From the NCBI GenBank assembly GCA_017626325.1, contig JAGAIZ010000038.1:1-52452 (forward strand): a stretch of DNA of 52,452 bases, written 5' to 3'. Made by a program: the position numbers and the translations under genes. Positions 22,931-48,361 of this stretch are shown piece after piece (positions within the stretch are counted from its first letter, which is position 1; each line of letters starts with the position of its first letter). The notes beneath the pieces were generated by a model. The model searched no databases. It saw only the letters and a program-made list of their open reading frames with translations, and was not told the origin of the DNA. Source of the DNA: Lachnospiraceae bacterium. Lineage in GTDB: Bacteria > Bacillota > Clostridia > Lachnospirales > Lachnospiraceae.

Positions 22931-23596
22931 TCACGTCCTATTATAATTCATTTCCTCCAAATATGGAAGAATATTCTCAAAAAGCTGTCGCACAACGGGC
23001 GCGGCAATCTGACCGCCGTAATAAGTCCCCTGGGGATGATTGATAATGGCAACGGCAAGCACCTGCGGGTCGTCCGCCGGGGCGAAACCAAGGAAAGAGG
23101 CGATATATTTGCCGCTTCCCCGGGGCAGCGTCTGGCTGGTGGCAGTCTTGCCGCCGATGCGGTATCCCTCCACTGCGCCGTTCTTGCCGCTTCCTTCCGC
23201 CACCACCTGCTCTAAGATGTAACGCATCGTCTCCGAGGTCTCCTCAGAAACCACATTGTCCCGCACCGGATACTCGAATATCTGACACACAGAGCCGTCG
23301 CTGTCCATCGTCTTCACCCCGAAATGAGGGGTCACCCGCCTGCCGCCGTTGATAATAGACGAAGCCGTGGTGGCAAGCTGAATCGGCGTAATCTGGAAGG
23401 ACTGGCCGAAAGAGATGGTGGCAAGTTCCACCGGCCCGATATTCTCTTCCTTATGCATGATCGTGCCAGCCTCTCCCGGCAAGTCGATTCCCGTCTTGTC
23501 AAGCAGACCGAACTGCCGAAAATATGAATAAAAGCGCTCCACACCGATTCGAAGCCCTACCGTGATAAACACCGGATTACAGGAATTTCTGAACAT
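22931..23596 (-). CDS. spoVD: SpoVD-like class B PBP, C-terminal part of a gene split by a 23.7-kb element
   Basis: This frame encodes the rest of a transpeptidase domain: SCNPVFITVGLRIG (SxN motif), then SFGQSFQITPIQLATT, and the third motif GGKTATSQTLPRGSGKY followed by FLGFAPADDP. It has no membrane anchor, no SxxK serine and only four codons (Met-Phe-Arg and the shared Asn) before Ser-Cys-Asn. The ATG at 23596 lies inside the element and has AGAGG seven bases upstream, so the fragment might be translated after the recombinase gene. Joining at the 11-bp repeat to the N-terminal part at 47256-48361 gives 583 residues; in that numbering this part starts near residue 366. The third motif is KTA, not the usual KTG. 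Confidence 0.93.
   Translation of the reverse strand: MFRNSCNPVFITVGLRIGVERFYSYFRQFGLLDKTGIDLPGEAGTIMHKEENIGPVELATISFGQSFQITPIQLATTASSIINGGRRVTPHFGVKTMDSDGSVCQIFEYPVRDNVVSEETSETMRYILEQVVAEGSGKNGAVEGYRIGGKTATSQTLPRGSGKYIASFLGFAPADDPQVLAVAIINHPQGTYYGGQIAAPVVRQLFENILPYLEEMNYNRT
22940..22945 (-). promoter_or_regulatory. Perfect -10 hexamer upstream of mraY
   Basis: TATAAT occurs in the last codons of the PBP C-terminal fragment, about 70 bases before mraY. The sequence 17 bp further upstream, TTCCAT, is a weak -35. If functional it would supply mraY to murA in the integrated state. Confidence 0.25.
23577..23587. repeat. Left attachment-site core of the integrated element
   Basis: The sequence is TTACAGGAATT on the plus strand and is identical to 47256-47266. 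On the minus strand it reads AATTCCTGTAA and supplies the codons for Asn-Ser-Cys and two bases of the next Asn codon. To its left is PBP sequence, to its right element sequence 62 bases before the recombinase stop codon. Confidence 0.88.
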
Positions 23597-23649
23597 AGAG
23601 TATCCTCTGACTTCAAAAACCGTTCACGCCTTGTTCCGCGCTGCCGCTC

Positions 23650-25545
23650 TTATGCTTCATTGCCGTCCTGCACGCGCCAGACGCCTGTACCTGCGGCTTT
23701 GCCTTTTTCATACCGCAGTTTTCCTGCTTTTTTGAGCGCTTTGATCGAAGTATTGACATAAGAATACCCGACTCCCAGCAGCTCCGGCAGATCTTTGGCG
23801 CGGATACCCGGGTTATCCCTAAGAATATTTAATATTTGCTGGTTAATTTCCCTTCTCCTCTCCGAACTTCCGTTCTCATGTATGTACTCAGTACGAATCC
23901 GGCATGGAACATTCTCAGAATCGTCATCTACAGCGCTGTCTGTTTTGCCTCCATACAGCTTCATCAATCCCTGCAGTTTGGTTCTGTTAAAGAGTATCTC
24001 AACTTTACGATCCGGATATACATAGATTTGATCGATCCTCATAACGAGTTCCTTCAGCTTTGCCCGATCGACTACATCACCGTTCCTTAAAGCTCCTTTG
24101 ACCGCTTCCAGCCGTTCTTCCTGTCCGGCAGATGCGAGGCTTTGCTCCTGCAGCAAGCGGAGCTTATCTGTAATCAGGCCCATCCGGCTGTCCAGTTCTT
24201 CCCTGCACTGTGCAAACTCTGTATCCGTGATTGTTTCATTCACCAGCTTGTCAAGCAAGACCCGCTTCTTTCGCTCCAGCCTTTCACACTCTTTTTCAAG
24301 TCTGCATACTTCCGACTTGGCCGGATCATCTCTGACGGCCCTTCTCACAAGTGCAAACGCCTCATCCGCAATGCCGCGCTGTGCTCCGAATAAGTTATCA
24401 TACTGCTTCTTACAGGCTGCCCCGATCATCTTATGGAGCTCCTCTTCCAACAGATTAATATTATCACAGCCGCCCTCATTGGAAGCTTTCCGCCCTTTCT
24501 TAAGCGCCGTGGAGCATTTCCATTCTGCGACTCTTCTGCCTCCCGACCGAAAGGTTGTTCTGTAATAGACCGCCCTGCATTCCGCGCAGATAAGCTTGCC
24601 GGAGAGATCATACCTGCCGGCCTGGGACATGTCTCTGCCGGCAGTCCCTAAGCTGTATTCTGTCTTCCTCCCGGCGATCGCGTTCAGCACTTCCGACTGG
24701 TATGCTTCCGATACGATAGGGGGCAGGGCGTTCTCAATGGTAATCCATTCTTCCGGCGGCAGGCTGACAAACCGCTTCGTGTCAAAGTCATATTCTCTCG
24801 TATGAATCACCATCGCACCGTGAGCTCTGGGAGAATACAGCATCTTGCGCCACTGTACATTGGATATCCTGCCGCCGTTTTTGCCTCTGACGCCCTGATC
24901 GTACATGTAGTTTGCAATGGTATAGAACCCCTTGCCCGCCCCTGCCATGTCAAAAGCCATTCGGTAGGCTTCGGCCTCAGCGTCATTGAGCCGGTACACG
25001 TCCTTTCCCACCTTATCCCATCCGAACATAGGTCTTGTAATATTTAGTCCCGCAGGCTTTTTCTGCCTGTGCATCTGTTGTCTGCGCCCATGGGAATTTT
25101 TGATCTTCTTGGACAGTTCCCTGCTGAACTCTTCGGCAAGAATCGCCTTGATGCCTGAAATCAGACTGTCGTCCGGCGTATAAAATTTATCTTCCATATA
25201 TATATATAGCTGTTTATCACTCTCCGTAAGCTTGTTGAGAAACAGATACCAGTCTTTGGCTGACCGCGTCAGCCTGTCTATTGACTTGATCATCACGATA
25301 TCAAAGAGATCTTTCTCCATATCTTCCAGAAGTCTCTGGTATTCCGTGCGGTTTTTGACGGTTGTGCCGGATTCGCTTTCGATATACTGTGCGGCGATGA
25401 TCCAGTTTTTTCTGACCGTTGCGATCTCCCTGCTCTCTTCCGCCTGAACCGCCAGCGCGTTCTTCTGGGCTTCCTCCTCCGTAGAACATCTGTTATAAAT
25501 GCCGACGCGCGGCGCCGGCACAGATAATCGCTGCCCTGCTGCCAT
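23650..25545 (-). CDS. Large serine recombinase (integrase/excisionase)
   Basis: The protein has 631 residues. The catalytic domain begins near residue 13, with Ser21 in YNRCSTEEEAQ as the expected nucleophile and the arginine-bearing SIDRLTR motif near 90. It is followed by a recombinase domain (about 165-290), a zinc ribbon (CAEC ... C ... C, about 325-370) and a long coiled coil (about 420-470), as in phage-type large serine recombinases. The last about 80 residues (from RREINQQILNIL) look like an additional winged helix, which is unusual. GGAGG precedes the ATG. The gene ends 62 bases from the left att core and reads toward the PBP fragment and mraY with no terminator between. It most likely catalyses integration and, with a directionality factor, excision. 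Confidence 0.95.
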   Translation of the reverse strand: MAAGQRLSVPAPRVGIYNRCSTEEEAQKNALAVQAEESREIATVRKNWIIAAQYIESESGTTVKNRTEYQRLLEDMEKDLFDIVMIKSIDRLTRSAKDWYLFLNKLTESDKQLYIYMEDKFYTPDDSLISGIKAILAEEFSRELSKKIKNSHGRRQQMHRQKKPAGLNITRPMFGWDKVGKDVYRLNDAEAEAYRMAFDMAGAGKGFYTIANYMYDQGVRGKNGGRISNVQWRKMLYSPRAHGAMVIHTREYDFDTKRFVSLPPEEWITIENALPPIVSEAYQSEVLNAIAGRKTEYSLGTAGRDMSQAGRYDLSGKLICAECRAVYYRTTFRSGGRRVAEWKCSTALKKGRKASNEGGCDNINLLEEELHKMIGAACKKQYDNLFGAQRGIADEAFALVRRAVRDDPAKSEVCRLEKECERLERKKRVLLDKLVNETITDTEFAQCREELDSRMGLITDKLRLLQEQSLASAGQEERLEAVKGALRNGDVVDRAKLKELVMRIDQIYVYPDRKVEILFNRTKLQGLMKLYGGKTDSAVDDDSENVPCRIRTEYIHENGSSERRREINQQILNILRDNPGIRAKDLPELLGVGYSYVNTSIKALKKAGKLRYEKGKAAGTGVWRVQDGNEA

Positions 25546-25593: not shown

Positions 25594-25746
25594 TTATTTA
25601 TATATCTCTTTGAATTTCATCTGTCCGTTAATCATATCTCTCATTCGTCTCTTCTCCTCATCGCTGATGAGTCCTTCCTGTTCCAGAAGTTCGGCAATAT
25701 TCAGCAATAAGTGTCTTTTTACCGTATCTGTATCAGCATCGCCCAT
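25594..25746 (-). CDS. Small helical protein upstream of the recombinase (SHOCT-like, candidate directionality factor)
   Basis: This gene encodes 50 residues from the ATG at 25746, preceded by GGCGGA. A longer frame to 25848 has no ribosome site. The segment LLLNIAELLEQEGLISDEEK followed by RRMRDMI resembles short SHOCT-type helical hairpins often encoded next to serine recombinases in Firmicutes elements. It lies 48 bases upstream of the recombinase on the same strand and must be co-transcribed. A role as recombination directionality factor is a guess from position only. Confidence 0.6.
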   Translation of the reverse strand: MGDADTDTVKRHLLLNIAELLEQEGLISDEEKRRMRDMINGQMKFKEIYK

Positions 25747-25826
25747 ATCATTCCGCCTGTATGTACAATTCTTGCTCCATTTTATTCCTGCGGGACCGCC
25801 GATATTACTATCTTTTCCCGGGCTGC

Positions 25827-25855: not shown

Positions 25856-25888
25856 AATGATAATACAAACGAAAAAGGGGGCTTTTTC

Positions 25889-27793
25889 ATGTACCATTCC
25901 AAAAAGATCGGTGTTTTTATTTCCCATATTTCCGGAGAATTCCAATGCGATATCTGTCAGGGAATCATCGACAAAGCATCCGAATTCGGTTATTTCGTAG
26001 AATTCTACTCCTCTACGGACGGTGAAAACATCGGCAATTACGGTATCGGTGAGAAAAGTATCCTCCGGATTCCGAATTTTGATGATTTTTCCGGCGTAAT
26101 TTTCGTATCGGGTACTTATCTGTCTGAAGATCTGCGGGACCGGATCGCAAAAGCCCTGCAGTCCAAATGCACCTGCCCCATTATCGACATCAACCAGAAT
26201 CACTCTTTCGCACCTTCCGTTGCACTGGATAATGACAGCGCTACCGGTCAGATCACGGAGCATCTGATTGGCACCCATCATTACAGAAGGATATGTTATC
26301 TCGGCAATTCGTCAGAGCCGCTTTTCTCCCATAAGAGACAGGAAGCCTATGAGAAAGTCATGGCACTGCACAATCTGCCGGTCAACGATACGGATCTTTA
26401 TGAATGTTCCTATGAAGAAAAGGATATTGCTGCCGCACTGACTCATTTCTTAAGCGTCGGAAAACCGGATGCCATAGTCTGCTACAATGACCGTATGGCA
26501 TTGACCTTGTTATCCGAACTGTTAGACCACGGCTATCGGGTTCCCGAAGATATCGCCATCACCGGAACAGATATGTTGGAAGAAGGTCAGGCAATGAACC
26601 CTTCCCTGACCTCTGTCACTTTCCCGATCAAAGAACTGGGAATCGCGGCGGCAGAACAGCTTCTGCTTGCGATCCGCGGGGAAAAGCCGGAGGATATATT
26701 TGTCATCAAGGCCTCTCCTCACATCGGCGGTTCCTGCGGCTGTCCCAGCACCTATGCCAGAAATCCTTTCTATTTTCAGCACTCCGTCAATCAGAAGGTC
26801 TGCCAGATGGAAAATGCCATTATGGATAATATCCATATGTCATCTTCTCTGCAAAGCGTGATTGACCTGAACGAGGGAATGGATCTGCTGGAACGGTTTC
26901 TTCCCCAAAGCGACGGCTTCAGAGACCTTTATCTGTGCCTTTATCCCGACTGGGACTCCGTTTCCACCCACATCCGCACCATCACCGCTTCCGAAGATGA
27001 GGATATGCCGGATCACGATATCATACTCCTTAAATTTGCCTTCAAAGACGGCAGACGGCTGCATGAATGCAGCTTTACCAAACAAAGCACGCTGCCGGAT
27101 CATCTGTTTGACACGGATGCTTCCGCCTATATCTTTTCCCCTCTTTATTTCGGCGAGAAAGAATTCGGCTACGTGGCTATGGCTTATAAAGGAAAACAAA
27201 TGTCCTATCAGCTTGACTTTTTCTCCTGGCTCATGAACGTCAGCAGCATGCTGCGCAATATTGCGGAGAACAAACGGACCGGCCTTCTGGTCAGCAGGCT
27301 GGAGGAAATCTATATGCGGGATGAATTGACAGGTCTGTATAACCGGCATGGATATAATCTGCTGTCAGAAGAATTATTGGAAAAAAAGAAGAACTCTGAT
27401 ACGCCTATCGCCGCTTTCGTTTTTGATCTGGATTGTCTCAAAGAGATCAATGACACCTATGGACACAGCGAAGGAGATTTTGCCATCCAGATTCTCGGTC
27501 AGGCATTGGAAAGCGCCGTCCGGAAAGGTGATATTTGCGCGCGCTTAGGCGGTGACGAGTTCTACCTGCTTGCCGCAGATTACACGAACGAGGATGCCCA
27601 TGCGCTTCTTTATCAGGTAAACCGTTATCTGGAGAATTATAACAAGCTGCACGCCAAAGCCTACAGGCTCTCCGTCAGCAGCGGCTTTGCTTTGGAAACA
27701 ATGAGCGCTTCCTTTGATCTGCCAAAGCTGTTTAAAAGAGCCGATCAGGAAATGTATCTTGACAAAAAGAAGAAGCCCAACCGTCACTGTTAG
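25889..27793 (+). CDS. LacI-type sugar-sensor domain fused to a GGDEF diguanylate cyclase
   Basis: The gene encodes 634 residues from the ATG at 25889, preceded by GGGGG; the open frame extends upstream but has no start signal there. Residues 1-275 form a periplasmic-binding-protein-like domain as in LacI repressors (KKIGVFISHISGEF at the start, AIVCYNDRMAL and the EDIAITGTD segment), but the DNA-binding helix-turn-helix is missing and there is no signal peptide. A middle domain of about 180 residues has no recognised family. The C-terminal GGDEF domain has DELTGLYNRHG and an intact RLGGDEF. It should therefore make c-di-GMP in response to a cytoplasmic ligand, probably a sugar. It converges on the AraC-type regulator. 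Confidence 0.85.
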   Translation: MYHSKKIGVFISHISGEFQCDICQGIIDKASEFGYFVEFYSSTDGENIGNYGIGEKSILRIPNFDDFSGVIFVSGTYLSEDLRDRIAKALQSKCTCPIIDINQNHSFAPSVALDNDSATGQITEHLIGTHHYRRICYLGNSSEPLFSHKRQEAYEKVMALHNLPVNDTDLYECSYEEKDIAAALTHFLSVGKPDAIVCYNDRMALTLLSELLDHGYRVPEDIAITGTDMLEEGQAMNPSLTSVTFPIKELGIAAAEQLLLAIRGEKPEDIFVIKASPHIGGSCGCPSTYARNPFYFQHSVNQKVCQMENAIMDNIHMSSSLQSVIDLNEGMDLLERFLPQSDGFRDLYLCLYPDWDSVSTHIRTITASEDEDMPDHDIILLKFAFKDGRRLHECSFTKQSTLPDHLFDTDASAYIFSPLYFGEKEFGYVAMAYKGKQMSYQLDFFSWLMNVSSMLRNIAENKRTGLLVSRLEEIYMRDELTGLYNRHGYNLLSEELLEKKKNSDTPIAAFVFDLDCLKEINDTYGHSEGDFAIQILGQALESAVRKGDICARLGGDEFYLLAADYTNEDAHALLYQVNRYLENYNKLHAKAYRLSVSSGFALETMSASFDLPKLFKRADQEMYLDKKKKPNRHC

Positions 27794-29395: not shown

Positions 29396-30229
29396 CTACT
29401 CTTTCACGCTGCCTGCCGAAACGCTGCTGATGATATACTTCGAGCAGAAACAGAATACCAGCAGAATCGGAATCACCGAGATTGCTACCGCCAGATAAAT
29501 CGCGCCCTGATTGGACTGAATATTCGTGGACGCTTTCAGCGTTGCCATCATCACCGGCAGGGTAAATTTTTCATTTTTGTTCAATATGATCATTGGCAGC
29601 AGATAGTTATTCCAGTTGCCGATAAATGCCATGATCGCCATGGTTGCAATACCCGGGGACATGATCGGCAGTACGATCCTGTGGAACGAATACAATTCTC
29701 CTGCCCCGTCGATTCTTGCCGCTTCCACCAAGGACGGCGGCAGAACAGACAATACATACTGTCTTAAGAAGAACACGGTTCCCGGCGCCGCAACCGCCGG
29801 AATGATTAACGGTATGTATGAGTTTACCAGATGCAGCCTGGTACACAGGTTGTAGAAACCGATCAGACCAAGCTGTCCGGGAATCATCATAAACAGAAGG
29901 ATCATGGTAAAGATGAACTTGTTCCCTTTAAACTTATACATTGCCAGACCATACGCGGTCAGCGCGGAGAAATATGCCGTCAGAAGCGTCGCGGGAACCG
30001 CTACCTTGACGCTGTTCCATATTCCCTGGAAAAGATTGAAATACTCAAATACGGTATCCCAGTTTTCCTTCAAATGCGTACTCGGAATCAGCGTAAAGGA
30101 ATTCACGATCTCTACACCGCTTCTCGTAGCATTGACGATCATTAAGAGGAAGGGAAGCAGACAAACCATTCCCAGAAGGATCAGAAGAAAATATAAAATA
30201 GCTTTTTTGATTTTAAAACCCGTACCCAT
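29396..30229 (-). CDS. Carbohydrate ABC transporter permease, MalG type
   Basis: The protein has 277 residues and six predicted membrane helices. The cytoplasmic EAA loop reads EAARIDGAGELYSFHRIVLPIMSPG, matching binding-protein-dependent transport permeases of the CUT1 sugar group. It follows the MalF-type permease by five bases. No ATPase gene is present in the operon or element, so a shared MsmK/MsmX-type ATPase encoded elsewhere is expected to power it. Confidence 0.92.
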   Translation of the reverse strand: MGTGFKIKKAILYFLLILLGMVCLLPFLLMIVNATRSGVEIVNSFTLIPSTHLKENWDTVFEYFNLFQGIWNSVKVAVPATLLTAYFSALTAYGLAMYKFKGNKFIFTMILLFMMIPGQLGLIGFYNLCTRLHLVNSYIPLIIPAVAAPGTVFFLRQYVLSVLPPSLVEAARIDGAGELYSFHRIVLPIMSPGIATMAIMAFIGNWNNYLLPMIILNKNEKFTLPVMMATLKASTNIQSNQGAIYLAVAISVIPILLVFCFCSKYIISSVSAGSVKE

Positions 30230-30234
30230 ATTCC

Positions 30235-31161
30235 TTAATCCTCCTTGTTAAACACTTTGAACTGGACAACAGAAACAGCAAGAATAATAAGGAAAAGGAT
30301 ATAGGCGATTGCCGAAGCATATCCCGTCTGTGTCGTTCCTGTTTCAAATCCGAATTTATAAAGATACATAACCGCCGTCTGCGTAGAGGGGTAAGCCGCG
30401 CTTGCCTTATCAACCATCAGGAACGGAAGATCGAACATCTGCAGTCCGCCGATCAGGGAAGTGACAGCCACATACAATAAGATCGGCTTTAACAGCGGTA
30501 ATGTGATTTTGCCGAATACAGTCCATCTTCCGGCGCCGTCGATCGCCGCCGCTTCGAAATAATCCGTGGAAATTCCCTGCACGCCCGCCATCAGCATAAT
30601 GAAAGAGTTGCCAAACCACACCCAGGTCTGGATCACTGCGATCGTAGGCCCTGCATAAGTTGCCGTGCCCAGCCAGTCGATCGGGTTATAAGACGCCCCG
30701 AAGAGATGATAGATACCGCTGATAATCTGATTGAATGTACCATAACGCCAATCTAACAATGTCTTAAACAAAAACGAGATAGAGGTGGCCGCAATCAGAT
30801 TCGGCAGATAATAAATAACTCTGAAAACACCAAGACCTTTCATCTTGTATTTGATATCGCTGAATACAATCGTCAGCAAAAACGCAAGTCCAAGCTGCAG
30901 CACGATATTGATGCCCCAGATTTTTGTCGTGTTCCATAAGGAACGCCAGAAAAATTTATCTTTAATCACTCTGATATAATTTTCAAACCAGACCCAATCC
31001 ATCTTGCCCACACCGGCAATCTTGGCATTGGTAAAACTTAAATATAAGGTTCTGAGAACCGGATATACACTGAAAATCATAAATACAACCACAAACGGAA
31101 GAACAAATATGTAGCCTGCCCGGTTGTATTTATGCAGATTGCTTTGACTCTTCTTTCCCAT
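30235..31161 (-). CDS. Carbohydrate ABC transporter permease, MalF type
   Basis: The protein has 308 residues with six membrane helices. Its EAA loop (EAAAIDGAGRWTVFGKITLPLLKPI) is intact. The N-terminal basic stretch MGKKSQSNLHKYNRAGY is typical for the MalF/UgpA partner of CUT1 importers. It lies between the lipoprotein gene and the MalG-type permease on the same strand. Confidence 0.92.
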   Translation of the reverse strand: MGKKSQSNLHKYNRAGYIFVLPFVVVFMIFSVYPVLRTLYLSFTNAKIAGVGKMDWVWFENYIRVIKDKFFWRSLWNTTKIWGINIVLQLGLAFLLTIVFSDIKYKMKGLGVFRVIYYLPNLIAATSISFLFKTLLDWRYGTFNQIISGIYHLFGASYNPIDWLGTATYAGPTIAVIQTWVWFGNSFIMLMAGVQGISTDYFEAAAIDGAGRWTVFGKITLPLLKPILLYVAVTSLIGGLQMFDLPFLMVDKASAAYPSTQTAVMYLYKFGFETGTTQTGYASAIAYILFLIILAVSVVQFKVFNKED

Positions 31162-38010: not shown

Positions 38011-38919
38011 TTACTCCTTCAACCCGGAATAAATAATCCCCTGCTCCAGATAATCCTGTCCCCAGACGAATACGAAGACCGCCGGAATCAGCGTAATAAC
38101 AGACGCCGCGAACGCATAGCCGGCCTGTGACCATGTGATTTCCGGCAGATACAGGGACAGCGGCCACAACGCCTTGTCCTCCAGAAAGGCCATCGGCTGT
38201 TCCATCATGTTCCAGTATTCCAGAAAGCCCAGGACCATGGCCGACAGCAGGCCGCTTTTGCCAAGGGGTAGCCCGATCCGCAAGAAGATCGTGCTCTCCT
38301 TCGCCCCGTCTATCCGCGCCGCCTCAAACAACTGCATCGGAATGCCCCGGAAGCCTCCATAAGACAGAAAGACGGGAAAGGTGGAAAAGACCGCCGGTAA
38401 AATCACCGCCTGCGGGGTATCCAGCATTTCCAGCCGGTTCAGCACCAGATAGCTTGACAGCATCGTAACCTGAAAAGGCAGAAGCATCAGCACCACATAG
38501 AGCGCAAACAGCACTCTGCCGCTCTTCACCTTATAGACGGCAAACGCCCAGGCTGCCGGAACACCCACCAGAAGCTGTCCTGCCAGAATACAGCCCACCA
38601 TCTTCATGGAATTCCAGAACAGGACGAAAAACTGCGGCGTCATAAAGAGCAGCTTCCCATAGTGCTCAAAGGTAGGATAATCCGGCACCAGCTTCCAACT
38701 GATGTACTCCGTGCCTTCCGCGAAGATCGGGGACAAGTACTGCTTTAACTCCCCGTTTCCCATCACAGAGCCGGTGATCAGAAAAAGCATCGGCAAAACG
38801 ACCAGAACAGCAGGCAGAATAAGAAGCAGCATGGTAAGTCCCTGCCCGACGCTTTTTCCATATTGATTCTTCCTAAACCAGCCCTTTGCCGTCGTCCATA
38901 ACTGTGTTTTCGTTGTCAT
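38011..38919 (-). CDS. ABC transporter permease, MalG type (second operon)
   Basis: The protein has 302 residues with six membrane helices. The EAA loop reads FEAARIDGAKESTIFLRIGLPLGKSG, as in CUT1 permeases. It follows the MalF-type gene by 23 bases and precedes the HlyD-like gene by the same distance. It is related to, but clearly different from, the permease at 29396. Confidence 0.9.
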   Translation of the reverse strand: MTTKTQLWTTAKGWFRKNQYGKSVGQGLTMLLLILPAVLVVLPMLFLITGSVMGNGELKQYLSPIFAEGTEYISWKLVPDYPTFEHYGKLLFMTPQFFVLFWNSMKMVGCILAGQLLVGVPAAWAFAVYKVKSGRVLFALYVVLMLLPFQVTMLSSYLVLNRLEMLDTPQAVILPAVFSTFPVFLSYGGFRGIPMQLFEAARIDGAKESTIFLRIGLPLGKSGLLSAMVLGFLEYWNMMEQPMAFLEDKALWPLSLYLPEITWSQAGYAFAASVITLIPAVFVFVWGQDYLEQGIIYSGLKE

Positions 38920-38942
38920 ATAGATAGATTCTCCTTACAAGC

Positions 38943-39842
38943 TTATGCCTCGTCCCTGTCCCACAAATGCTGCAGCAGCATGATTACCGCAAACAGAAAG
39001 CCTCCTACGCAGACCGCCGCCGCTGCCATCTTATCAAAATCAAGATTCACAAACCAGTTGTTAAACAGATGCTGTAACAGATAGATGTCCTGTTCGGGAT
39101 ACGCGCCCGCCACCAGATAAGCTTCCCTGTATATCTTAAAAGAATTCAAAAAAGAAAGAATCACGATAGTATAAAGGCTTCCCTTTAAGTTAGGCAGTAC
39201 GATCCTAAAAAAAATCTGCCCGCCCGATGCGCCGTCCACCCGCGCCGCTTCCAGAAACTCATTGGGAATTCCCAGAATCCCCGCAAGCCACAACACCACC
39301 GTATAGCCCGTGTTTTTCCAGACATAACTAAATACCAGCACCCAGAAAGCCGCGCCGCTTCCCAGATAATCCTTATGGATTTCTCCCCATAAGCCCGTCC
39401 ATTCTCCAAGCTGCGTCAGAAAGAGATTTAAGAGGCCCTGTTTGTAGAAAAACATCTTCCACACAATGACAATCGTCGCCGTTGGCATGGCCAGCGGAAA
39501 CAGATACAGGGATTTTACCAGCCCGGCATTTTGCAGCTTACTGAGCGGCAGGGCAATAATGAGTCCCGCCACCACCAGGATCGGAATACATACCGCCGTA
39601 AACCGGAGGGTATTCTTCACGGCAAGCACAAACGCCTGATTGGTAAATATGGTCTGATAATTCCGTATGCCGTTAAACTGCCCCGTTACCGCTGTCGTAA
39701 AAGAACGCTTCCACACATCCAGAAACGGAAGCAGCACAAAGAGCAACACGCCCAGAAAACTGGGCGCCATAAATAACATAAATGACCTTCCGGATCTGCG
39801 CGACTGCCGGGATTGGTTCCTCCGCCCTCCCGCGCCCCGCAT
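38943..39842 (-). CDS. ABC transporter permease, MalF type (second operon)
   Basis: The gene encodes 299 residues from the ATG at 39842, preceded by GAGG; an alternative ATG at 39929 lies just after the upstream stop codon, without a clear ribosome site. It has six membrane helices and an EAA loop (EAARVDGASGGQIFFRIVLPNLKGS). The basic N-terminus RRNQSRQSRRSGR fits a cytoplasmic start. Together with the MalG-type protein it should form the channel for the lipoproteins encoded upstream. Confidence 0.88.
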   Translation of the reverse strand: MRGAGGRRNQSRQSRRSGRSFMLFMAPSFLGVLLFVLLPFLDVWKRSFTTAVTGQFNGIRNYQTIFTNQAFVLAVKNTLRFTAVCIPILVVAGLIIALPLSKLQNAGLVKSLYLFPLAMPTATIVIVWKMFFYKQGLLNLFLTQLGEWTGLWGEIHKDYLGSGAAFWVLVFSYVWKNTGYTVVLWLAGILGIPNEFLEAARVDGASGGQIFFRIVLPNLKGSLYTIVILSFLNSFKIYREAYLVAGAYPEQDIYLLQHLFNNWFVNLDFDKMAAAAVCVGGFLFAVIMLLQHLWDRDEA

Positions 39843-39935
39843 GATATAACGCCTCTTATGCTGTAATTCATCATTAACATTTATCTGTTTCAAACTGATA
39901 CCATGCCCTTCCTCAGCCTGCAAATCCATTTCACA

Positions 39936-42410
39936 CTACTCAGCCATATACAACGAAACCTTCTTCTCGATCTCTTCGACCGCTTCTTCCAGACTATATC
40001 TGCCGTACAGATAATTTGCGCCTTCCTCGTACACGACCTCTTCCAGTCTGTTATCCTCTATATAAGCAATTTGGGCTGTCTCGATATCTTCTCTCAGCTC
40101 GTCTATTTCCGCTTCCGTAGGCCAGTAAACATCCATTTCAAGATATTTTCCGTCGTCATAGCTTACGCAGATCATGCCATAGACGCCGTCTTCGTCTACT
40201 CCCTCTACCTCAAAGCTCTTCTCAAAAGCCGCTTTGTTTACCGCAAAGCCGTTAAACAGATTGCTCTGATTCTCTTTGCCAAGGCATACCCTGATAAAAT
40301 CCTGTGCCCGTTCCGTATTCTGCGACGCGGCGCTTACGCCAAGCATCGTCTTTGCGCAGAATACATTACTGCTTTGGCCGGGCATGGGAATCCAGTCTGT
40401 TGTCTCATAATCCCTGACCCTGCCTGTAGAAATAACGGTAGCGTAGCTGTAAGCATCGCCGATCGCGCCGCTGTTCATACACTGAAACTTTCCGATATAA
40501 CTCATGACGTCTGCAAACCTTCTAAAAGACTCCGAATCCTCTTTGGATGTTCCCGTAGTCTCTAAGTAATAATCATTCTCTTCGTCATAAATATCCACTC
40601 TGTCCTGCGGTATACCGTCCATCTGCGCATCATAGATCCGTTTCATCTGGGTCAGGAATTCCGCAATCGCCTCCTGATCAATTTCACCGTTCTGCGTCGT
40701 CCATGACGGCATACTGGTCATGGTAAACATGCGCATAATGCCTTTGGCAGAGCATATTCCTAATAAATCCTCTTCCGGATGCTCCGCCCGCAGCTTCTCA
40801 ACCGCATCGGCAAAGTCTGCGAGACTATTTGCCCCGGCAGTATATTTCCCATCCGCCACGATAACAGGAAGCTGAATCTCACAGGGTATGGCACAGATCT
40901 GATCCCCTGCTGTCATCACATCCGCGATATTGCCAAATATCTCGTCTTCTCCTTCCAGAGAGCCTATAAGCGGCTTCAAATCCAGAAGCAGGTTCTTCTC
41001 CATATAGGAGTCTAGCGGCATACCGTCCAGAATCAGAACGTCCGGCCCTTCTCCTGCCATAATCTTCGTATTCAGACTCTTTAAGGCGTCGTCCCTGGTA
41101 ATGGCGCCGCCTTCTCCCATGCCGATCTCATACTCCACGAACACCTCCGGGTTAGCCGTCTGGTACAGGGTAATCGCCTGTCGTATCGTATCGTTTTCCT
41201 TCAGGCTGTAAACCGTCAGCTTCTCATTGGGCACCGTAGGAATATCAGGATCATAGACGAATCGCACCAGCTTGCCATTCGTAAATAAAGTCATAAACTC
41301 GTTGTTTTCCATCGTCAGCATCCCATAGATGCCGTAGGCCGGATTATTAAAGGTACACAGCTTGCCGTCGATGACCTGCTCCATAGCGCTTCCGCCTATC
41401 ACATGCCGGTACAGGCCTTTGGCTCCCGCCAGATACAAGACGCCGTCTTCTCCCGGGAAGAAATACATACCGCAAGAACCCATTTCTCTGTCGAATCTGT
41501 CCGGATAATTTTCCTCCACAAACTTCTCCAGCACCTCATCTTCGATGTATTCTTCCTGCTCCATATCATAGATGAGAGGCCCCTTGCAGCCATATCCGTC
41601 CAGAATCATCAACTGGCCCAGAAAAGAAACCAGCTCCGGCCGAAAATCCGACTCCATCGTCATATAAAGTTCCCCGGTACCATCCTCTGAGACCTCATAG
41701 ATATTGCCGCTTCCCATGGTAGTCACAAAGATTCTGCCATCCTCTGTGATATAACTGTTATAGAGGTAAGAGTCTTCCTCCGTGGTAGGAAGCGACGCCT
41801 GTATCTGTGTGCCGTCCGGTTTCACGATCATCAGCTCCGGATGAAGCTCCGGTTCCGTCATCTCTTCTCCGGCAGACTCTGCATCCTCCGCGGCTCCTGT
41901 GTCGCTGCCGTCTGTGCTGTCTGCGGCGCTGTCAGTATTCGTCCCATCATAAATAACCGCCACCGTATTGTCCGCGCCTACACACATATCCATGATATAG
42001 ATCTGATCATCCATCATCTGCGTATACCAGTCTCTGGCGTCGGCCGTCCATGTAGCGCCATTATCCCCGGAGATGAAAATCCCCGACCCTCCCTCTGTAA
42101 TGACAAGACTGCCGTCCGTCAGACGCTGAAGACTGTTGTCATAGCCGTATATCAAATCGGTTAAATCCGTAACCTCCTCTACATACCGTCCCATAGCTCC
42201 GCTGTCCGCTCCGTTTTGCTCCTGCGTCTCTAAATGCGCGCTCTGTGCCTCTCCGTTCTGCGCTGCCGCGTCGTCTCCCGCGCTGCCGCATCCTCCAAGA
42301 CAGGACGCCGCCATGACGACCGCAAGGAACGCGGCTGACCTTCTATGCACATTGCTGCCATGCACATTTCTATTCCGCCATATAGATTGAAATTTTGTCC
42401 TTAATTGCAT
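39936..42410 (-). CDS. Lipoprotein with Asp-box N-terminal domain and solute-binding C-terminal domain (copy 2)
   Basis: The protein has 824 residues. The lipobox is LGGC (cysteine about residue 41). Residues of about 75-390 carry repeated beta-strand segments and one clear Asp-box (SGDNGATW), as in sialidase or BNR-type propellers, and the sequence LVSFLGQLMILDGYG. From about residue 400 the sequence is a type-1 solute-binding domain (NDTIRQAITLYQTANPEVFVEYEIG and AGEGPDVLILDG). The gene overlaps the end of copy 1 by 41 bases and has GAGGAG before the ATG, so both are coupled. It is a clear paralogue of copy 1. The substrate is unknown. Confidence 0.85.
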   Translation of the reverse strand: MQLRTKFQSIWRNRNVHGSNVHRRSAAFLAVVMAASCLGGCGSAGDDAAAQNGEAQSAHLETQEQNGADSGAMGRYVEEVTDLTDLIYGYDNSLQRLTDGSLVITEGGSGIFISGDNGATWTADARDWYTQMMDDQIYIMDMCVGADNTVAVIYDGTNTDSAADSTDGSDTGAAEDAESAGEEMTEPELHPELMIVKPDGTQIQASLPTTEEDSYLYNSYITEDGRIFVTTMGSGNIYEVSEDGTGELYMTMESDFRPELVSFLGQLMILDGYGCKGPLIYDMEQEEYIEDEVLEKFVEENYPDRFDREMGSCGMYFFPGEDGVLYLAGAKGLYRHVIGGSAMEQVIDGKLCTFNNPAYGIYGMLTMENNEFMTLFTNGKLVRFVYDPDIPTVPNEKLTVYSLKENDTIRQAITLYQTANPEVFVEYEIGMGEGGAITRDDALKSLNTKIMAGEGPDVLILDGMPLDSYMEKNLLLDLKPLIGSLEGEDEIFGNIADVMTAGDQICAIPCEIQLPVIVADGKYTAGANSLADFADAVEKLRAEHPEEDLLGICSAKGIMRMFTMTSMPSWTTQNGEIDQEAIAEFLTQMKRIYDAQMDGIPQDRVDIYDEENDYYLETTGTSKEDSESFRRFADVMSYIGKFQCMNSGAIGDAYSYATVISTGRVRDYETTDWIPMPGQSSNVFCAKTMLGVSAASQNTERAQDFIRVCLGKENQSNLFNGFAVNKAAFEKSFEVEGVDEDGVYGMICVSYDDGKYLEMDVYWPTEAEIDELREDIETAQIAYIEDNRLEEVVYEEGANYLYGRYSLEEAVEEIEKKVSLYMAE

Positions 42411-44865
42411 CGATTGTCTCCTCCATATTCTGATTGCCCTCTATATATGTAATCCCCTCTGTACATACCGCGTCTTCCAAAACCGTATCCTTTATATAGG
42501 GTACCTTCAACTCTGCCACCCACTGCCGCAGGGTGTCTTTTTCGGTCTCATCCATCCAGTATACCGCTTTCTCTATATAGTTGCCGTCCTCATCGGACAT
42601 CGCCCAATAGCCGTAAATCTCGTCATCCGAGCCATCCAGCGGTTTCTCCGGAAGCAGATTATATTCAAACGCTGCCCGATTCGTCACGAAGCTGCCGAAT
42701 TTGCCGTTCTCTTTTCCCAGAAGCACACGCAGAAGTTCCTGCGCCTGCCCGGCATGGGCGGACGCCGCGTTGATTCCCGCCAGCGTATCCACATAGAACA
42801 CATCTTCACATTGACCGGCAATACGGGCCGTCACTACGTCTTCGAAGCCTTTGACATACAGAATCGACGTAACATCCGAATAGTCATAGGCCCCGCTCGC
42901 AGACCCGATCTCCATCGCATGAGAATTGCCTCTTAACAGATAAGACATGGGATCGTAACCAATACCGAAATCATCGTCCTCTTTCGTCATTCCTGACCAT
43001 TCCACCCAATCCTCATTATCTTCCTCATAGGCTTCCGTCACCTCCTCCGGCAGCCCCTCCATCTGCGCTTCATAAATCCTTCTGCACGCTTCCAGATAGT
43101 CCGCAATGGCCTGCATATCTGCCTCTCCGCTTTCCGTCTTCCATGCAGGCGCGCACAGAGGTGTAAATTTCCTGATAATCCCTTTGGCGGAACAGATATG
43201 CAGCAAGTCCTCCTTAGGATGCTCTCTTCGCAGCTTTTCCACAATATTTGCGATTGCCTCCAGAGAATCCAGCTTTTCAACACATGCTTTGTCCCCTATT
43301 ACAACGGGAATGCTAAACTCGCAGGGCAGCATGTATATGCCGCTTTCTGTGCGAAAAGCCTCCGTGATATTCTCAAAAAGCGCTTCCTCTCCGTTTAAGG
43401 AGCTGGCGAAACCGCTTAACTCAAGCAGCAGTCCTTTATCAATATAGGAATTGGCAGGCAGACCGTCCAGAAGCAGAAGGTCAGGACCTTCTCCCGCCAT
43501 AATCTGTGTGTTAAGCTTCTTGATGGCATCCTCCCTTGTCACTGAACTGTCTTCCGTTATCCCTATTTCATATTCCACATACATCTCCGGATGCTCGTTC
43601 TGATATATGCTGATTGCCCGCCGTAAAATAGTGTTATCCTCCAGGCTGTAGGCTATAATCGTCTCACTGGGCATCGTCGGCACATCGGCATGATACACAT
43701 AACGCACCAGCCTTCCGCCGCTGAATAATGCCAGAAATTCATTGTCATCCAGAGCAACCATATCGAACAGACCGTACGCCGGATTGTTGAAGGTCGTAAG
43801 GTTGCCGTCGATCACCTGCTCCATGGCGCTGCCGCCCAGCACATGCCTGTGAAGTCCTTTCTTTCCCGCCAGATACAGGATATCATCCTCTCCCGGAAAG
43901 AAATACAGGTCGTACCAACTCCCGCCGTTAAAGCTTCGTTCCCCATAATTCTCATGGATGAAGTCGTCCAGCACCTCATCCTCTATGTATTTCTCCTGTT
44001 CCATATCGTAGATCAGCAGACTGTCGTAATAGTACCCGTCCATAATCATCTTATTGCCCAGAAAAGAAATCACCTGCGGGCGCTCCTCCACGGTCAGAAA
44101 CACTTCGCTGCTGCCGTCCTCATGGACTTCATAAATATTCGGCCCCAGCGTAGTGACAAACATTCTGCCCTCCTCTGTGCTCCAGATTTCACAAGGATAT
44201 TCGTCGTCCTCTGTGACGGAAATATCAACAGGAATCTGCGTACCGTCCGGCTTAATCAACACGACTTCCGGCTTAAACTTATAAGCTGCAGCTTCTGTAT
44301 CAGCATCCGCGCCGTCATTGTCTTCTTCTGCCTTCATGGCTTCCGGCTCATAGATGACGCCCACCGTATCATCCCGGCTGACAGCGATGCTCATCAAGTA
44401 TACGTTTTCTTCAAGCATATCGCTGCGCCAGTCTCTATGCTCTGTTTCCCAGGTAACGCCGTTATCGCCGGAACGCACGAAATCCGCAAATCGCTCCGTG
44501 ATTACCATACTGCCGTCCTCAAGACAGTAAAGTCTCTCATTGTAACCGCTGAGCATATCTCCTAAATCAGTCGTCTCCTCCAGATAACGCCCCATGGCCA
44601 CACCGCCCGCATCATCCGCTCCCTGCATTTCTCCCGCTCCTTCAATGCCTCTCTCCTCCGTCCCGGTTCCCTCTTCCGGTGCACCGCACCCTCCCAGCAG
44701 CGACACGGACATGAGAAGCGCTGTCAGAAGCGGCAGAGATTTTATACATCTCCTCTGATTACTGTCTCTATGCTTTCTCAATTTACACTTCTTTCTCAAT
44801 TGACAGTTCCCCTTTCGTCTTACGCCAGAACATTTACAGTTCCCCTTCGCCTTATGCCAGAACAT
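42370..44865 (-). CDS. Lipoprotein with Asp-box N-terminal domain and solute-binding C-terminal domain (copy 1)
   Basis: The protein has 831 residues. It has the same architecture as the next gene: LGGC lipobox near residue 60, an Asp-box SGDNGVTW, the shared block GGSAMEQVIDGNLTTFNNPAYG, and a solute-binding domain with AGEGPDLLLLDGLP. The start at 44865 lies in a tandem DNA repeat and gives an unusually long basic segment before the signal-peptide core. A TTG nearer the hydrophobic core is an alternative. The gene heads the operon and is divergent from the OmpR-type regulator. Confidence 0.82.
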   Translation of the reverse strand: MFWHKAKGNCKCSGVRRKGNCQLRKKCKLRKHRDSNQRRCIKSLPLLTALLMSVSLLGGCGAPEEGTGTEERGIEGAGEMQGADDAGGVAMGRYLEETTDLGDMLSGYNERLYCLEDGSMVITERFADFVRSGDNGVTWETEHRDWRSDMLEENVYLMSIAVSRDDTVGVIYEPEAMKAEEDNDGADADTEAAAYKFKPEVVLIKPDGTQIPVDISVTEDDEYPCEIWSTEEGRMFVTTLGPNIYEVHEDGSSEVFLTVEERPQVISFLGNKMIMDGYYYDSLLIYDMEQEKYIEDEVLDDFIHENYGERSFNGGSWYDLYFFPGEDDILYLAGKKGLHRHVLGGSAMEQVIDGNLTTFNNPAYGLFDMVALDDNEFLALFSGGRLVRYVYHADVPTMPSETIIAYSLEDNTILRRAISIYQNEHPEMYVEYEIGITEDSSVTREDAIKKLNTQIMAGEGPDLLLLDGLPANSYIDKGLLLELSGFASSLNGEEALFENITEAFRTESGIYMLPCEFSIPVVIGDKACVEKLDSLEAIANIVEKLRREHPKEDLLHICSAKGIIRKFTPLCAPAWKTESGEADMQAIADYLEACRRIYEAQMEGLPEEVTEAYEEDNEDWVEWSGMTKEDDDFGIGYDPMSYLLRGNSHAMEIGSASGAYDYSDVTSILYVKGFEDVVTARIAGQCEDVFYVDTLAGINAASAHAGQAQELLRVLLGKENGKFGSFVTNRAAFEYNLLPEKPLDGSDDEIYGYWAMSDEDGNYIEKAVYWMDETEKDTLRQWVAELKVPYIKDTVLEDAVCTEGITYIEGNQNMEETIDAIKDKISIYMAE

Positions 44866-45123: not shown

Positions 45124-45804
45124 ATGAGGATTCTACTGGCAGAAGACGACAGACAATTGAACAGCACGCTGACTTATCAGCTTACACAGGAAGGCTTTGA
45201 CGTGGATTCCTGTTTCGATGGGGAAGAAGCCTGCTTCTATGGAGAACAGAATATCTACGATATGATTCTGTTAGACAGAATGCTTCCGCATATGGAAGGA
45301 ACGGATGTACTGACCTCTCTGCGGACGAAGGGCATCACGACTACCGTCATACTGATTACGGCGCTTGGCACGCTGTCCGATAAGGTCACCGGGCTTAATC
45401 TGGGCGCCGACGACTATCTGGTCAAGCCCTTCGATTTTGAAGAGCTGCTTGCCCGAATCCGCTGTGTCGCCAGACGGCCGCATACACTGACAGACTCCGA
45501 TACGCTTACGGTCGCCGATGTCTCTTTTCAGGCCTCGGAAGGTATTCTTACAGGCCCTGCGGGCAAATGTACGCTTTCCAAGCGGGAGGCAGCTCTGTTA
45601 GAAGCCTTTCTCCGTTCGAGGGGACAGCTCCTGCCGCGAAGCAATTTGCTGCTGAAGGTATGGGGTCCCGACAGCGATGTAGAAGAAGGCAATCTGGACA
45701 ATTATATCCATTTTCTGCGCAGGCGGCTTTCGATTACCGGCAGCAGATTGCAGATTAAGACCATCCGCGGCGTAGGCTACAGCTTACAGGACACGGCGTG
45801 CTGA
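45124..45804 (+). CDS. OmpR/PhoB family response regulator
   Basis: The protein has 226 residues. The receiver domain has the acidic pair EDD at residues 7-9, phospho-acceptor Asp51 in LLDRMLP and Lys in LVKPFDFEELL. The C-terminal winged helix is of OmpR type (LSKREAALLEAFLRSRG ... LDNYIHFLRRRL ... IKTIRGVGYSL). It is on the plus strand with the histidine kinase following, and divergent from the propeller/solute-binding lipoprotein operon, its probable target. Confidence 0.95.
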   Translation: MRILLAEDDRQLNSTLTYQLTQEGFDVDSCFDGEEACFYGEQNIYDMILLDRMLPHMEGTDVLTSLRTKGITTTVILITALGTLSDKVTGLNLGADDYLVKPFDFEELLARIRCVARRPHTLTDSDTLTVADVSFQASEGILTGPAGKCTLSKREAALLEAFLRSRGQLLPRSNLLLKVWGPDSDVEEGNLDNYIHFLRRRLSITGSRLQIKTIRGVGYSLQDTAC

Positions 45805-45872
45805 CTGGGCTGTTATCATATTCAGCTCATCAGATTGATTTTTCAACCCATACTCACACGAAGGAAGCTTCC

Positions 45873-47171
45873 ATGTATAACAAAGTACACCGCAGACTCA
45901 CTCTGCTATGCGCGGGAATCACCGCCGTAATCATGATCGTTATGTCCCTTTGCTATCTGTATGTCTCAGAAAGAGGACTTTACCGGAATCAATTCCAATC
46001 CTTTCAGAACGATATCAATACCATTACCACCAATTTAGAGCAGCAGTCCGTTATCTCGATGGAATGGCTGTCTAAAATGGAGGCACAGGGAAACTATCTC
46101 TTCTTCGTGCTGGACAACGGCGTTCCTTTCCTGTACAACCAACTGAATGATTCGCAGGAAGCCTCCCTGCGCAAACAGCTTCTGAGCGAAGCGCTGGACG
46201 CCTTCGACAATCTGTTCATTTATGATCCTTCCCTGCAGGCCGTTATTCCCGCCACCTCTTATGTGTCTTTTCATCTGGAATACGAATTTGTCTCTTCTGC
46301 ACACGGCGCTTACTATGCCAGTGTCATCCGCATGGGGCAGAACGCCTCTCTGGAAATCATCGTGCTTTCTTCGCTGGCATCCCTGGAGCGACAGATTCAG
46401 GAACAGCGCATCCGTTTCGTCCTGATCGATCTGGCGGCCATTCTGCTACTCTCCGTCTTTTCCTGGTTTTTTACCGGAAAGCTGTTAAAACCCATTGTGG
46501 AAAACCAGTTAAAGCAGGTGCAGTTTGTGGCGTCAGCTTCCCATGAACTGAAAACGCCGCTGGCAGTCATCTTATCTGCGGCGGAATGCTGTAGAAATGC
46601 CGATGCAGATAAGCAGCAGGATTTCCTGAAGATCATCCGGCAGGAGGTTCGGCGCGTCTCCGCTCTGGTAAACGACATGCTGACGCTGTCCCAGTCGGAC
46701 AATCACTATTTCACCATCAGCCCGCAGCCTATAGAGCTTGACACCCTGCTTATGAATTCCTATGAAACCTTCGAACCGTTAGCGCGGGATAAGGATATCG
46801 CGCTCTCCATCCATCTGCCCCGGGAGGCGCTTCCCGCCTGCCCCGCAGATCCGGAACGATTAAGCCAGGTAATCGCTATCCTGCTGCACAACGCTATCAG
46901 CTATACGCCGGCTCATGGGGCGATAGACTTGTCCCTTTCTTACGAGAAGAATCATTTCCTTCTGTCCGTCATGGACAACGGCATCGGCATATCAAAGGAA
47001 GACAAGAAGAAGATTTTCGACCGCTTCTACCGGGCGGAGAGATCCAGAAGCACTAAGGGGCATTTCGGGCTGGGACTGTCAATCGCCTCCGAAATCGTAC
47101 GGGCGCACGGCGGCAGCATCGCTGTGACGGACACCCGGGGCGGCGGCAGTACCTTTACGGTAGTATTATGA
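45873..47171 (+). CDS. Two-component sensor histidine kinase
   Basis: The gene encodes 432 residues from the ATG at 45873, preceded by AAGGAAG; an overlapping start at 45798 is less likely. Two membrane helices (about residues 10-30 and 190-215) flank an extracellular sensor region of about 160 residues with no recognised family. The dimerisation domain has the phosphorylated His in SASHELKTPLAV, and the ATPase domain has HNAISYTP, DNGIGISKEDKKKIFDRFYRAE and GHFGLGLSIA. It is the partner of the preceding regulator. It is the last gene of the element, 84 bases from the right att core. Confidence 0.93.
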   Translation: MYNKVHRRLTLLCAGITAVIMIVMSLCYLYVSERGLYRNQFQSFQNDINTITTNLEQQSVISMEWLSKMEAQGNYLFFVLDNGVPFLYNQLNDSQEASLRKQLLSEALDAFDNLFIYDPSLQAVIPATSYVSFHLEYEFVSSAHGAYYASVIRMGQNASLEIIVLSSLASLERQIQEQRIRFVLIDLAAILLLSVFSWFFTGKLLKPIVENQLKQVQFVASASHELKTPLAVILSAAECCRNADADKQQDFLKIIRQEVRRVSALVNDMLTLSQSDNHYFTISPQPIELDTLLMNSYETFEPLARDKDIALSIHLPREALPACPADPERLSQVIAILLHNAISYTPAHGAIDLSLSYEKNHFLLSVMDNGIGISKEDKKKIFDRFYRAERSRSTKGHFGLGLSIASEIVRAHGGSIAVTDTRGGGSTFTVVL

Positions 47172-48361
47172 TATACCCCGGCGGCTGACTGCCGATACGC
47201 CGCAGACAGCAGACGCATGCACCTGCAATTTGCTCTGCAATCCGTAACTTCCTGCTTACAGGAATTCATCGTGCCCTGTACGAAGTCCTCCGCACCGTGG
47301 CCTCCTACCTTGTGACATCGTATCTTGCGGTCTTCCACCATAATGAAGCCGGGGCAGCTAAAGGTATCAGTGGTCTTCACCGCACCGGATTCCAGACCTG
47401 CGGCAGCCGTAATGATCTTGAAGGTAGAGCCGGGTTCATAGGTATCGTTGATGCACCCGTTGCGCCACATCTGGTTTAACAGATTCTGCCGCTCTTCTTC
47501 GGTAAGGCTACCGCTTTCTATCTCTTCCGGCAGCGTGTAAGGATTGTTCAGGTCAAATTCCGGCACATTCACCATGGCAAGAATCTCACCGTTGCGGGGA
47601 TTCATCACCAGAATCGACACGCTCTGCGCTTCCTTGGTCTCCATGGTCTGTAAGGCAAGCTGGGTAGCATAGCTTTGTATGTTCATATCCAGACTGATAT
47701 ACAGATCCTGACCGTTTACCGGCTCCACCCGTTCTTCTCCGGCTTCCGCCACTTCCACACCCTTAGCGTCTGTCACCGTCAGAATAGTTCCCGGCTCTCC
47801 CTGCAGATATTCCTCATAGATGACTTCCAGCCCGATAATGCCCTGATTATCTCCGCCCGTAAAGCCAAGTACCTTGGAAGCCAGCGAATCGTAGGGATAA
47901 TACCTTTTATAATCCTCATCCACCTTCACGCCGTCCAGATCATAAGCCCGAATGGCGTCTCCCACACTTTTGTCCACATTGCTCTTAATCTTCTCAATAG
48001 AGGAATATTTCTCCACTCTCTTGCGTACGTATTCTTCGGAAAGCCCCAGTTCCCTGCACAATACGTCAATTACTTCCTCCGGGTCCGTAAGCTGGTTGTG
48101 AATGACAGAGATCGTGCACACCGTCTTATTATCCGCCAGTATTTTGCCGTTGGCGTCCACGATGCGCCCTCTGGCCGCCTTAATGCTTCTCTCCCTCTCA
48201 TGCAGTTCTTTCGCTTTCTGCGTATAGTATTCCGACTGAAAAATCATCAGATAGGAGAGCCGTGCAATCAATCCGATAAAAACCGCAAGACAGGCGAAAA
48301 AGATAACCACCGTCTTGCTTCTGTGATAGGTTTTATGCAGATAAGATTTCTCTTCTTTCAT
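47027..48361 (-). CDS. spoVD: SpoVD-like class B PBP, N-terminal part of a gene split by a 23.7-kb element
   Basis: Authentic PBP sequence runs from 48361 to the att core at 47256 (368 complete codons); the remaining 77 codons to 47027 are element sequence antisense to the kinase gene. The authentic part has a membrane anchor (about residues 14-35), the dimerisation domain (RGRIVDANGKILADN) and the transpeptidase start with the nucleophile Ser312 in STFK. The SxN motif is broken: it reads Ser-Cys-Lys here, and the Asn and the KTA motif are 23.7 kb away. It follows pbpB directly, the position of spoVD in the B. subtilis cluster. It has no PASTA domain, unlike B. subtilis SpoVD. As it stands it cannot be an active transpeptidase. 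Confidence 0.93.
   Translation of the reverse strand: MKEEKSYLHKTYHRSKTVVIFFACLAVFIGLIARLSYLMIFQSEYYTQKAKELHERERSIKAARGRIVDANGKILADNKTVCTISVIHNQLTDPEEVIDVLCRELGLSEEYVRKRVEKYSSIEKIKSNVDKSVGDAIRAYDLDGVKVDEDYKRYYPYDSLASKVLGFTGGDNQGIIGLEVIYEEYLQGEPGTILTVTDAKGVEVAEAGEERVEPVNGQDLYISLDMNIQSYATQLALQTMETKEAQSVSILVMNPRNGEILAMVNVPEFDLNNPYTLPEEIESGSLTEEERQNLLNQMWRNGCINDTYEPGSTFKIITAAAGLESGAVKTTDTFSCPGFIMVEDRKIRCHKVGGHGAEDFVQGTMNSCKQEVTDCRANCRCMRLLSAAYRQSAAGVYHNTTVKVLPPPRVSVTAMLPPCARTISEAIDSPSPKCPLVLLDLSAR
47256..47266. repeat. Right attachment-site core of the integrated element
   Basis: TTACAGGAATT, identical to 23577-23587. To its right the minus strand reads the PBP sequence GAEDFVQGTM, and to its left is non-coding element sequence. 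The reading frame on both sides puts AAT-TCC-TGT-AA at the same codon phase, so recombination across it is frame-neutral. Confidence 0.88.

Follow-up and report, generated by a model that had tools for sequence, protein, structure and literature searches.

The split spoVD-type gene

The window analyzed here, a 52,452-nucleotide stretch of Lachnospiraceae DNA (assembly GCA_017626325.1, contig JAGAIZ010000038.1), carries on its minus strand a gene for a class B penicillin-binding protein (PBP) that is interrupted in frame, within the SxN catalytic motif, by 23,679 bp lying between its two parts. The N-terminal part (47256–48361, minus strand) consists of 368 codons and the AA of the Asn codon, and the C-terminal part (22931–23576, minus strand) extends from the rest of that codon through the stop. 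Exact copies of an 11-bp repeat, AATTCCTGTAA, were found in identical codon phase on the minus strand, and were designated attL (47256–47266) and attR (23577–23587) and compared with those of relatives as described below. Joining of the two parts gave a frame of 1752 nt and 583 codons free of internal stops, the translation of which contained STFK, SCN, and KTA. The split, the repeats, and the restorable frame had been pointed out previously in a reading of the sequence alone (hereafter the sequence-only reading), and all of them were reproduced here.

In a profile search against NCBIfam, TIGR02214 (spoVD) was the best family for both parts, which matched consecutive ranges of the profile (307.2 bits over positions 3–345 for the N-terminal part and 248.5 bits over 341–558 for the C-terminal part), and it was also the best-scoring family for two intact relatives. 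The gene cluster runs from pbpB to the split gene and, past the element, to mraY, murD (both identified by eye), and ftsW/spoVE, with spoIIGA, sigE, and sigG further on, and the position of the split gene in it is that of spoVD. This agrees with the SpoVD-like identity and the position that had been proposed for the gene. The transpeptidase activity of SpoVD is reported to be required for the cortex in Bacillus subtilis; in Clostridioides difficile, deletion of spoVD abolished spore formation and SpoVD activity was required for sporulation, whereas spores of normal morphology were formed without the PASTA domain of the protein.

The recombinase and the small upstream ORF

The intervening element (23577–47255), whose length is given by the offset between the repeats, is largely syntenic with that of a related genome, G023, the nearest one in which the gene is split too (G numbers denote genomes, G000 being that of the window in all comparisons, and L numbers denote loci of relatives). 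Beside attR, it encodes a large serine recombinase of 631 aa (23650–25545, minus strand) as a full-length open reading frame (ORF), in which Resolvase, Recombinase, and zinc-ribbon domains and a winged-helix domain near the C-terminus were detected with Pfam; the recombinase had indeed been described as intact. Its Ser21, invariant among 11 aligned relatives, is what we take to be the catalytic Ser.

Just upstream of the recombinase gene lies a 50-aa ORF (25594–25746, minus strand). Counterparts were found in all 15 operons inspected, the resemblance in G790 being judged by eye, and this small ORF and the recombinase are the constant parts of the elements. Pfam and PHROGs searches with the small ORF gave no match, and we regard its product as a candidate recombination directionality factor. 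Since small ORFs of a similar kind, as judged by eye, precede 3 of 10 distant recombinases, it may be a general partner of such enzymes. Upstream of both genes, a conserved promoter-like block was identified at 25779–25808 on the minus strand.

Recurrence of the split in related genomes

A search of 77 genomes of the genus with the joined protein gave a continuous match in 65, and 10 (G000, G009, G023, G064, G065, G066, G067, G068, G069, and G073) were found to be split at the same codon, near residue 368. A gene continuous in 65 of 77 genomes and broken at one and the same codon in 10 presents a pattern beyond chance; comparison with relatives for an uninterrupted form had been suggested by the sequence-only reading. 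Twelve of the continuous genes bear one stop flag, which in the two that were checked (G043 and G075) lies five codons from the end. Not counted as split were G020, in which two pieces lie approximately 15 nt apart with an apparent frameshift, and G045, which has an intact gene and an extra C-terminal piece that stands at a contig start and begins before the junction; G029 gave a pbpB-level match but no spoVD-level match and entered neither count. No second, intact copy of spoVD, which the sequence-only reading would have counted against its proposal, was seen in the 10 split genomes, which are mostly incomplete drafts. Each of them gave three matches, the third being pbpB-level in 8 of the 10 among the matches listed, and pbpB adjoins the N-terminal part of spoVD in G009 and G023.

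When the recombinase was searched in the same 77 genomes, 28 matched at 1e-30, and 10, including that of the window, did so at 60% identity or more. In a draw of 397 genomes from the family, three matched at 1e-150, namely those of the window, G139, and G197, and in the latter two the recombinase sits between spoVD halves broken at the same codon. Likewise, a draw of 392 genomes from the order gave two matches, the window and G752, and the gene of G752 is split too; 127 of 138 genomes of its genus match the joined protein at 1e-95. In that genus, G790, which is a single 4.08-Mb contig, was also split at the same Asn codon, and its recombinase is 32% identical to that of the window. One junction only was available in G856 of the same genus (an attL-like end near the contig end) and in L030, a named contig of a metagenome-assembled genome (MAG; right end only). 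The same spoVD codon is occupied in three genera besides that of the window; the draws overlap and are samples, from which no family-wide frequency is claimed. G874 and G799, whose pieces share a single open frame, were not counted as split, nor were the truncated G859, G894, G877, and G818, the first two of which were fetched and found to end with the contig. The recombinase was read in 15 split loci, in all of which its catalytic and recombinase domains are open, and a split accompanied by a dead recombinase, which the sequence-only reading had named as evidence to the contrary, was not encountered among them.

The crossover site

Comparison by eye of the 14 loci with both ends available revealed a sole adjacent base pair common to attL and attR in all of them, namely the AA of the Asn codon, and the crossover core is therefore shorter than 11 bp. 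The left junctions retain the host Ser-Cys codons, and at the right junctions the codon preceding Asn has drifted to Arg in 4 of 13 (G065, G066, G068, and G073). This drift at the right ends, together with the kept Ser-Cys on the host side, would be as expected if constraint acted on the crossover alone. SCN was present in all 12 joined rows and in all 30 intact rows listed. The cleavage point of the gin element has also been predicted at an AA (PMC5595907).

The promoter-like block and sporulation genes

The block upstream of the small ORF reads GTMATAYYG-N12-GAATARRAT and was gapless in 11 of 11 aligned operons. In the genus, the SigE-type promoters of spoIVA, spoIIIAA, spoIID, and yqfC read nATR-N15/16-CATA, spoIID and yqfC being presumably SigE targets. 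Both spoIIIAA and spoIVA are named as SigE targets in C. difficile (PMC5025042). The training sites (24 of spoIVA, 29 of spoIIIAA, 4 of spoIID, and 8 of yqfC) were chosen with the CATA pattern, and the invariance of CATA is therefore partly built in. The block was the best SigE-like site in 7 of 10 regions, with scores of 9.8–10.9 out of 20.4 (7.8 in G009) and training medians of 19.2 and 20.2; G068 was excluded from this scoring because the pattern had picked a second, decayed copy of the block. A similar non-canonical SigE-like site (score 9.2) was found in the region upstream of the spoVD-type gene of the window. These features are suggestive at most of SigE control of the recombinase operon. 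A cross-genus look by eye did not find the block in G139 or G197. By eye, a SigH-type interpretation of the block was considered as well. Interpretation of the block as a leader peptide was dropped, as G009 and L030 lack its ATG.

Regarding the capacity for sporulation, spoIIIAA was detected in all 77 genomes of the genus (76 above the cut-off) and spoIVA in 71, including 9 of the 10 split ones, and spoIID- and yqfC-type genes are present in the genome of the window, with scores below the curated cut-offs.

Proposed excision and alternative explanations

The element lies within a sporulation gene, its ends share a short att core at which precise removal restores the frame, and it encodes a large serine recombinase. 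We therefore propose, with a probability of roughly 0.8, that it is a skin-type sporulation gene-intervening element that is excised to restore spoVD in the mother cell. A large-serine-recombinase mobile element would thus reside in the Asn codon of the spoVD SxN motif, and the recombinase, probably aided by the small protein encoded upstream, would recombine attL with attR at the AA of this codon, whereupon the element would leave as a circle and the continuous 583-codon spoVD would be restored. Since SpoVD is needed for the spore cortex only, the gene can tolerate the split during growth. The DNA of the terminal mother cell is not passed on, and excision there would allow the element to persist in the spore line. 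As regards the skin-like logic advanced by the sequence-only reading, the split, the element, and the logic itself are backed by the relatives, whereas the developmental timing, for which the promoter evidence is weak, is something that we infer, though reasonably so, as we do the excision, the circle, and the role of the small protein.

Several observations weigh against this proposal. The block has the ATA-N16 spacing but AATA instead of CATA, its score topped the 95% level of the shuffles in 2 of 10 regions and tied with it in one, and spoIVA was not found in the split genome G066. The isoelectric points of the small ORF products span 5.2 to 10.0, and are thus not uniformly acidic like that of C. 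difficile CD1234, and the recombinases of G064, G065, G067, G068, and G069 are without the C-terminal extension (543–563 versus 604–631 codons). The curated TIGR02214 cut-off of 688 bits was missed even by the intact relatives (559.5 and 552.4 bits, with profile positions 559–636 unmatched), and the gene is for this reason called spoVD-type. The median ratio of nonsynonymous to synonymous divergence (dN/dS) was slightly higher in the split genomes (0.057 for the N-half and 0.049 for the C-half) than in the intact ones (0.040 and 0.041), though far from neutral, both halves remaining under purifying selection when split; the intact set comprised those 30 of the 65 genes for which loci were available, and pairs with saturated synonymous sites were excluded beforehand, leaving 30/45 split N, 43/45 split C, 252/435 intact N, 388/435 intact C, and 28/45 genus recombinase pairs. 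Furthermore, the trees show repeated gain, loss, or exchange, and divergence outside the G000–G023 pair may therefore partly predate insertion. In the SpoVD tree (42 rows, 12 split and 30 of the 65 intact), the split state needs 6 changes, at least 4 of which are forced by well-supported branches, and the recombinase tree, unlike that of the host gene, pairs G067 with G065 and G066 with G073. Given this disagreement and the repeated changes of the split state, the elements move or swap parts.

This mobility and exchange, together with the weak SigE promoter evidence, could also be accommodated by excision that is not developmental, in which the element would occasionally exit and re-enter in growing cells and a minor fraction of cells, those whose gene is intact, would give rise to the spores; in another species, excision of the yin element was detected at all culture time points (PMC10747680). 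Spores from excised cells, however, would lose the element, and yet element and split have persisted in the G000–G023 pair over the synonymous divergence (dS) of the flanks. The dS values of this pair were alike for seven cargo genes (0.83–1.85), the recombinase (1.50), the two halves (1.47 and 1.19), and the flanks (1.74 and 1.23), which is most simply explained if the element has been in place since before the two species parted. Because element, halves, and flanks share similar dS, the gene has been conserved while split, dN/dS of its halves being 0.032 and 0.029. Minimal elements without transfer genes persist as well, and we consider non-developmental excision unlikely.

The gene as assembled cannot be translated whole, as would be the case if spoVD were dispensable in the carrier species and had been decaying since the insertion. 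In the split rows, however, neither half bears a premature stop, apart from one in G009 that lies close to the very end, like those of the intact genes of G043 and G075, and dN/dS of the halves is close to that of intact genes. Neutral drift would produce stops: in a crude neutral simulation over half the G000–G023 distance, at least one stop arose in 1000 of 1000 replicates of each half. Decay of a dispensable gene is thus highly improbable. The recombinases of four minimal elements also gave dN/dS values of 0.115–0.188. Since a gene that is always split and not wholly translatable remains well conserved, restoration at the DNA level at the time of use would be the simplest explanation, and the conservation of both halves while split strongly argues that the whole gene is used.

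It is just as improbable that the two parts are separate proteins assembling into an active enzyme. Although the C-terminal part in the window is provided with a plausible ribosome-binding sequence and, following it, an ATG located 18 nt ahead of the Asn codon, in 7 of 13 loci the interval from the upstream stop to the Asn codon contains no ATG, GTG, or TTG, and the tail of the N-terminal part varies between elements. An assembly artefact can practically be dismissed, for even though the relatives with names are all MAGs, the genomes are mostly drafts, and the halves of G009 lie on two contigs, an 11-bp repeat is too short for a misjoin and the junction recurs in many separate assemblies, including the one 4.08-Mb contig of G790.

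Comparison with known intervening elements

The interrupted sporulation genes named in the literature considered here are sigK, spsM, spoVFB, gerE, and yabG, and no report of an interrupted spoVD was found in the titles or abstract openings of the open-licence literature. The skin element in sigK of C. difficile (PMC5025042) is likewise a serine-recombinase element splitting a mother-cell gene in frame. It differs in its target and in being called prophage-like; its directionality factor is a small element-encoded protein, CD1234 (72 aa), whereas the small ORF of the window is a candidate only, and control of the small gene by SigE and SpoIIID was shown experimentally there, unlike here. In gerE of Bacillus cereus, the gin element (PMC5595907) likewise employs a serine recombinase, together with an additional factor, for which the small ORF is a candidate here, and is predicted to be cleaved at an AA; it is a non-phage element, as the present one would be, judging from its scanned proteins. 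It has a different target, three recombinase genes, and a size of 28.6 kb, and its excision was shown in vivo and in vitro. In Clostridium botulinum, yabG contains the yin element (PMC10747680), which is also a serine recombinase element in a sporulation gene with a small putative directionality factor, and differs in its target, its prophage-like nature, its description from one strain, and the presence of excised junctions throughout growth. SP-beta in spsM (PMC4191935) and vfbin in spoVFB are excised from sporulation genes during sporulation, as we propose for the present element, but these are phage or prophage-like and reside in other genes. Compared with these systems, spoVD, which encodes a cortex transpeptidase, would add an interrupted target that itself builds the spore wall, in a gut family thought to be spread by spores. 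It also calls for caution where sporulation ability is judged from genomes, as a split spoVD may be mistaken for a pseudogene.

Sizes and contents of the elements

Where one contig holds both ends, the elements span 3.4 to 24.7 kb. In the genus, minimal elements of approximately 3.5 kb (G064), 3.6 kb (G066), and 3.8 kb (G065 and G069) were found along with larger ones of approximately 8.7 (G068), 15.9 (G073), 17.9 (G067), 23.7 (G000), and 24.7 kb (G023); those of other genera measure approximately 3.4 (G752), 6.3 (G197), 8.0 (G139), and 10.4 kb (G790), and that of G009, with its halves on two contigs, was unmeasured. Genes for ParA, a TraG/VirD4-type protein, and a TrbL/VirB6-like protein in the G073 element suggest descent from a conjugative ancestor and recall integrative conjugative elements with serine integrases; unlike these, the window element has no transfer gene among its scanned proteins, and the gene content of the minimal elements is too small to allow transfer. 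Ranging from an element equipped with transfer genes down to 3.4-kb remnants that retain a recombinase, the series could show the growing dependence of a parasite on the development of its host, and equally the host coming to depend on excision of the element. A broader scheme, for which we would put the odds somewhat below even, is that in gut Lachnospiraceae the SxN codon of spoVD repeatedly serves as a developmental safe harbour: recombinases of two or more distant lineages would home to it on account of the near-invariant catalytic motif, carry metabolic cargo vegetatively, and excise only in the dying mother cell, some having shrunk to host-domesticated switches of 3.4–3.8 kb that would hold the cortex transpeptidase off until needed.

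The cargo region of the window element (25883–47171) contains metabolic and sensory genes, identified by profile for the scanned proteins and by eye for the others. Those scanned comprise a LacI-type/GGDEF sensor, an AraC-type response regulator, solute-binding proteins, a chemotaxis receptor, a GH30 glycosidase, an HlyD-like protein, and a two-component pair, and ATP-binding cassette (ABC) permeases were named by eye at 29396–31161 and 38011–39929. In the sensor (25883–27793), a LacI-type periplasmic-binding domain and a GGDEF domain are fused in one protein. At 39936–44865, two long adjacent lipoprotein-like ORFs resemble tandem paralogues by eye; the first has solute-binding domains, and the second (42370–44865) was named by eye. 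Among the eight element proteins scanned with Pfam, some ORFs being unscanned, no phage or transfer protein was found apart from the recombinase. Phage and plasmid origins were considered and rejected, the recombinase matching six phage records at 25–40% identity and one plasmid record at 33%. Two scans of viral contigs, one without a pattern match and the other of 422 stretches, gave no relative. In the other elements, BlaI/BlaR1-like regulators and an ABC transporter (G067), an FGGY-type kinase, an FAD oxidoreductase, and a VanW-domain protein (G139), and an Hsp70 (G197) are encoded.

Several minor features of the relatives were also observed. In the G068 element (L064), a second copy of the promoter-like block lies at position 8382 on the plus strand with a truncated small ORF behind it, as would be left by partial deletion of an earlier element from this site. 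G813 has a continuous gene and a second piece. In G874 (C3:113396-115216) and G799 (C185:6958-8757), spoVD aligned as two pieces around residue 282 within a single open frame, which suggests an in-frame insertion. At 14245–15951 of L187, the cluster of G790 is rearranged, since a spoIIGA-like ORF (by eye) instead of mraY comes after the C-terminal part of spoVD. Pfam and PHROGs searches gave no match for two small secreted-looking ORFs of L071 (G069), a pair that recurs in the left half of the minimal elements in L063, L069, and L070 (G066, G064, and G065, respectively).

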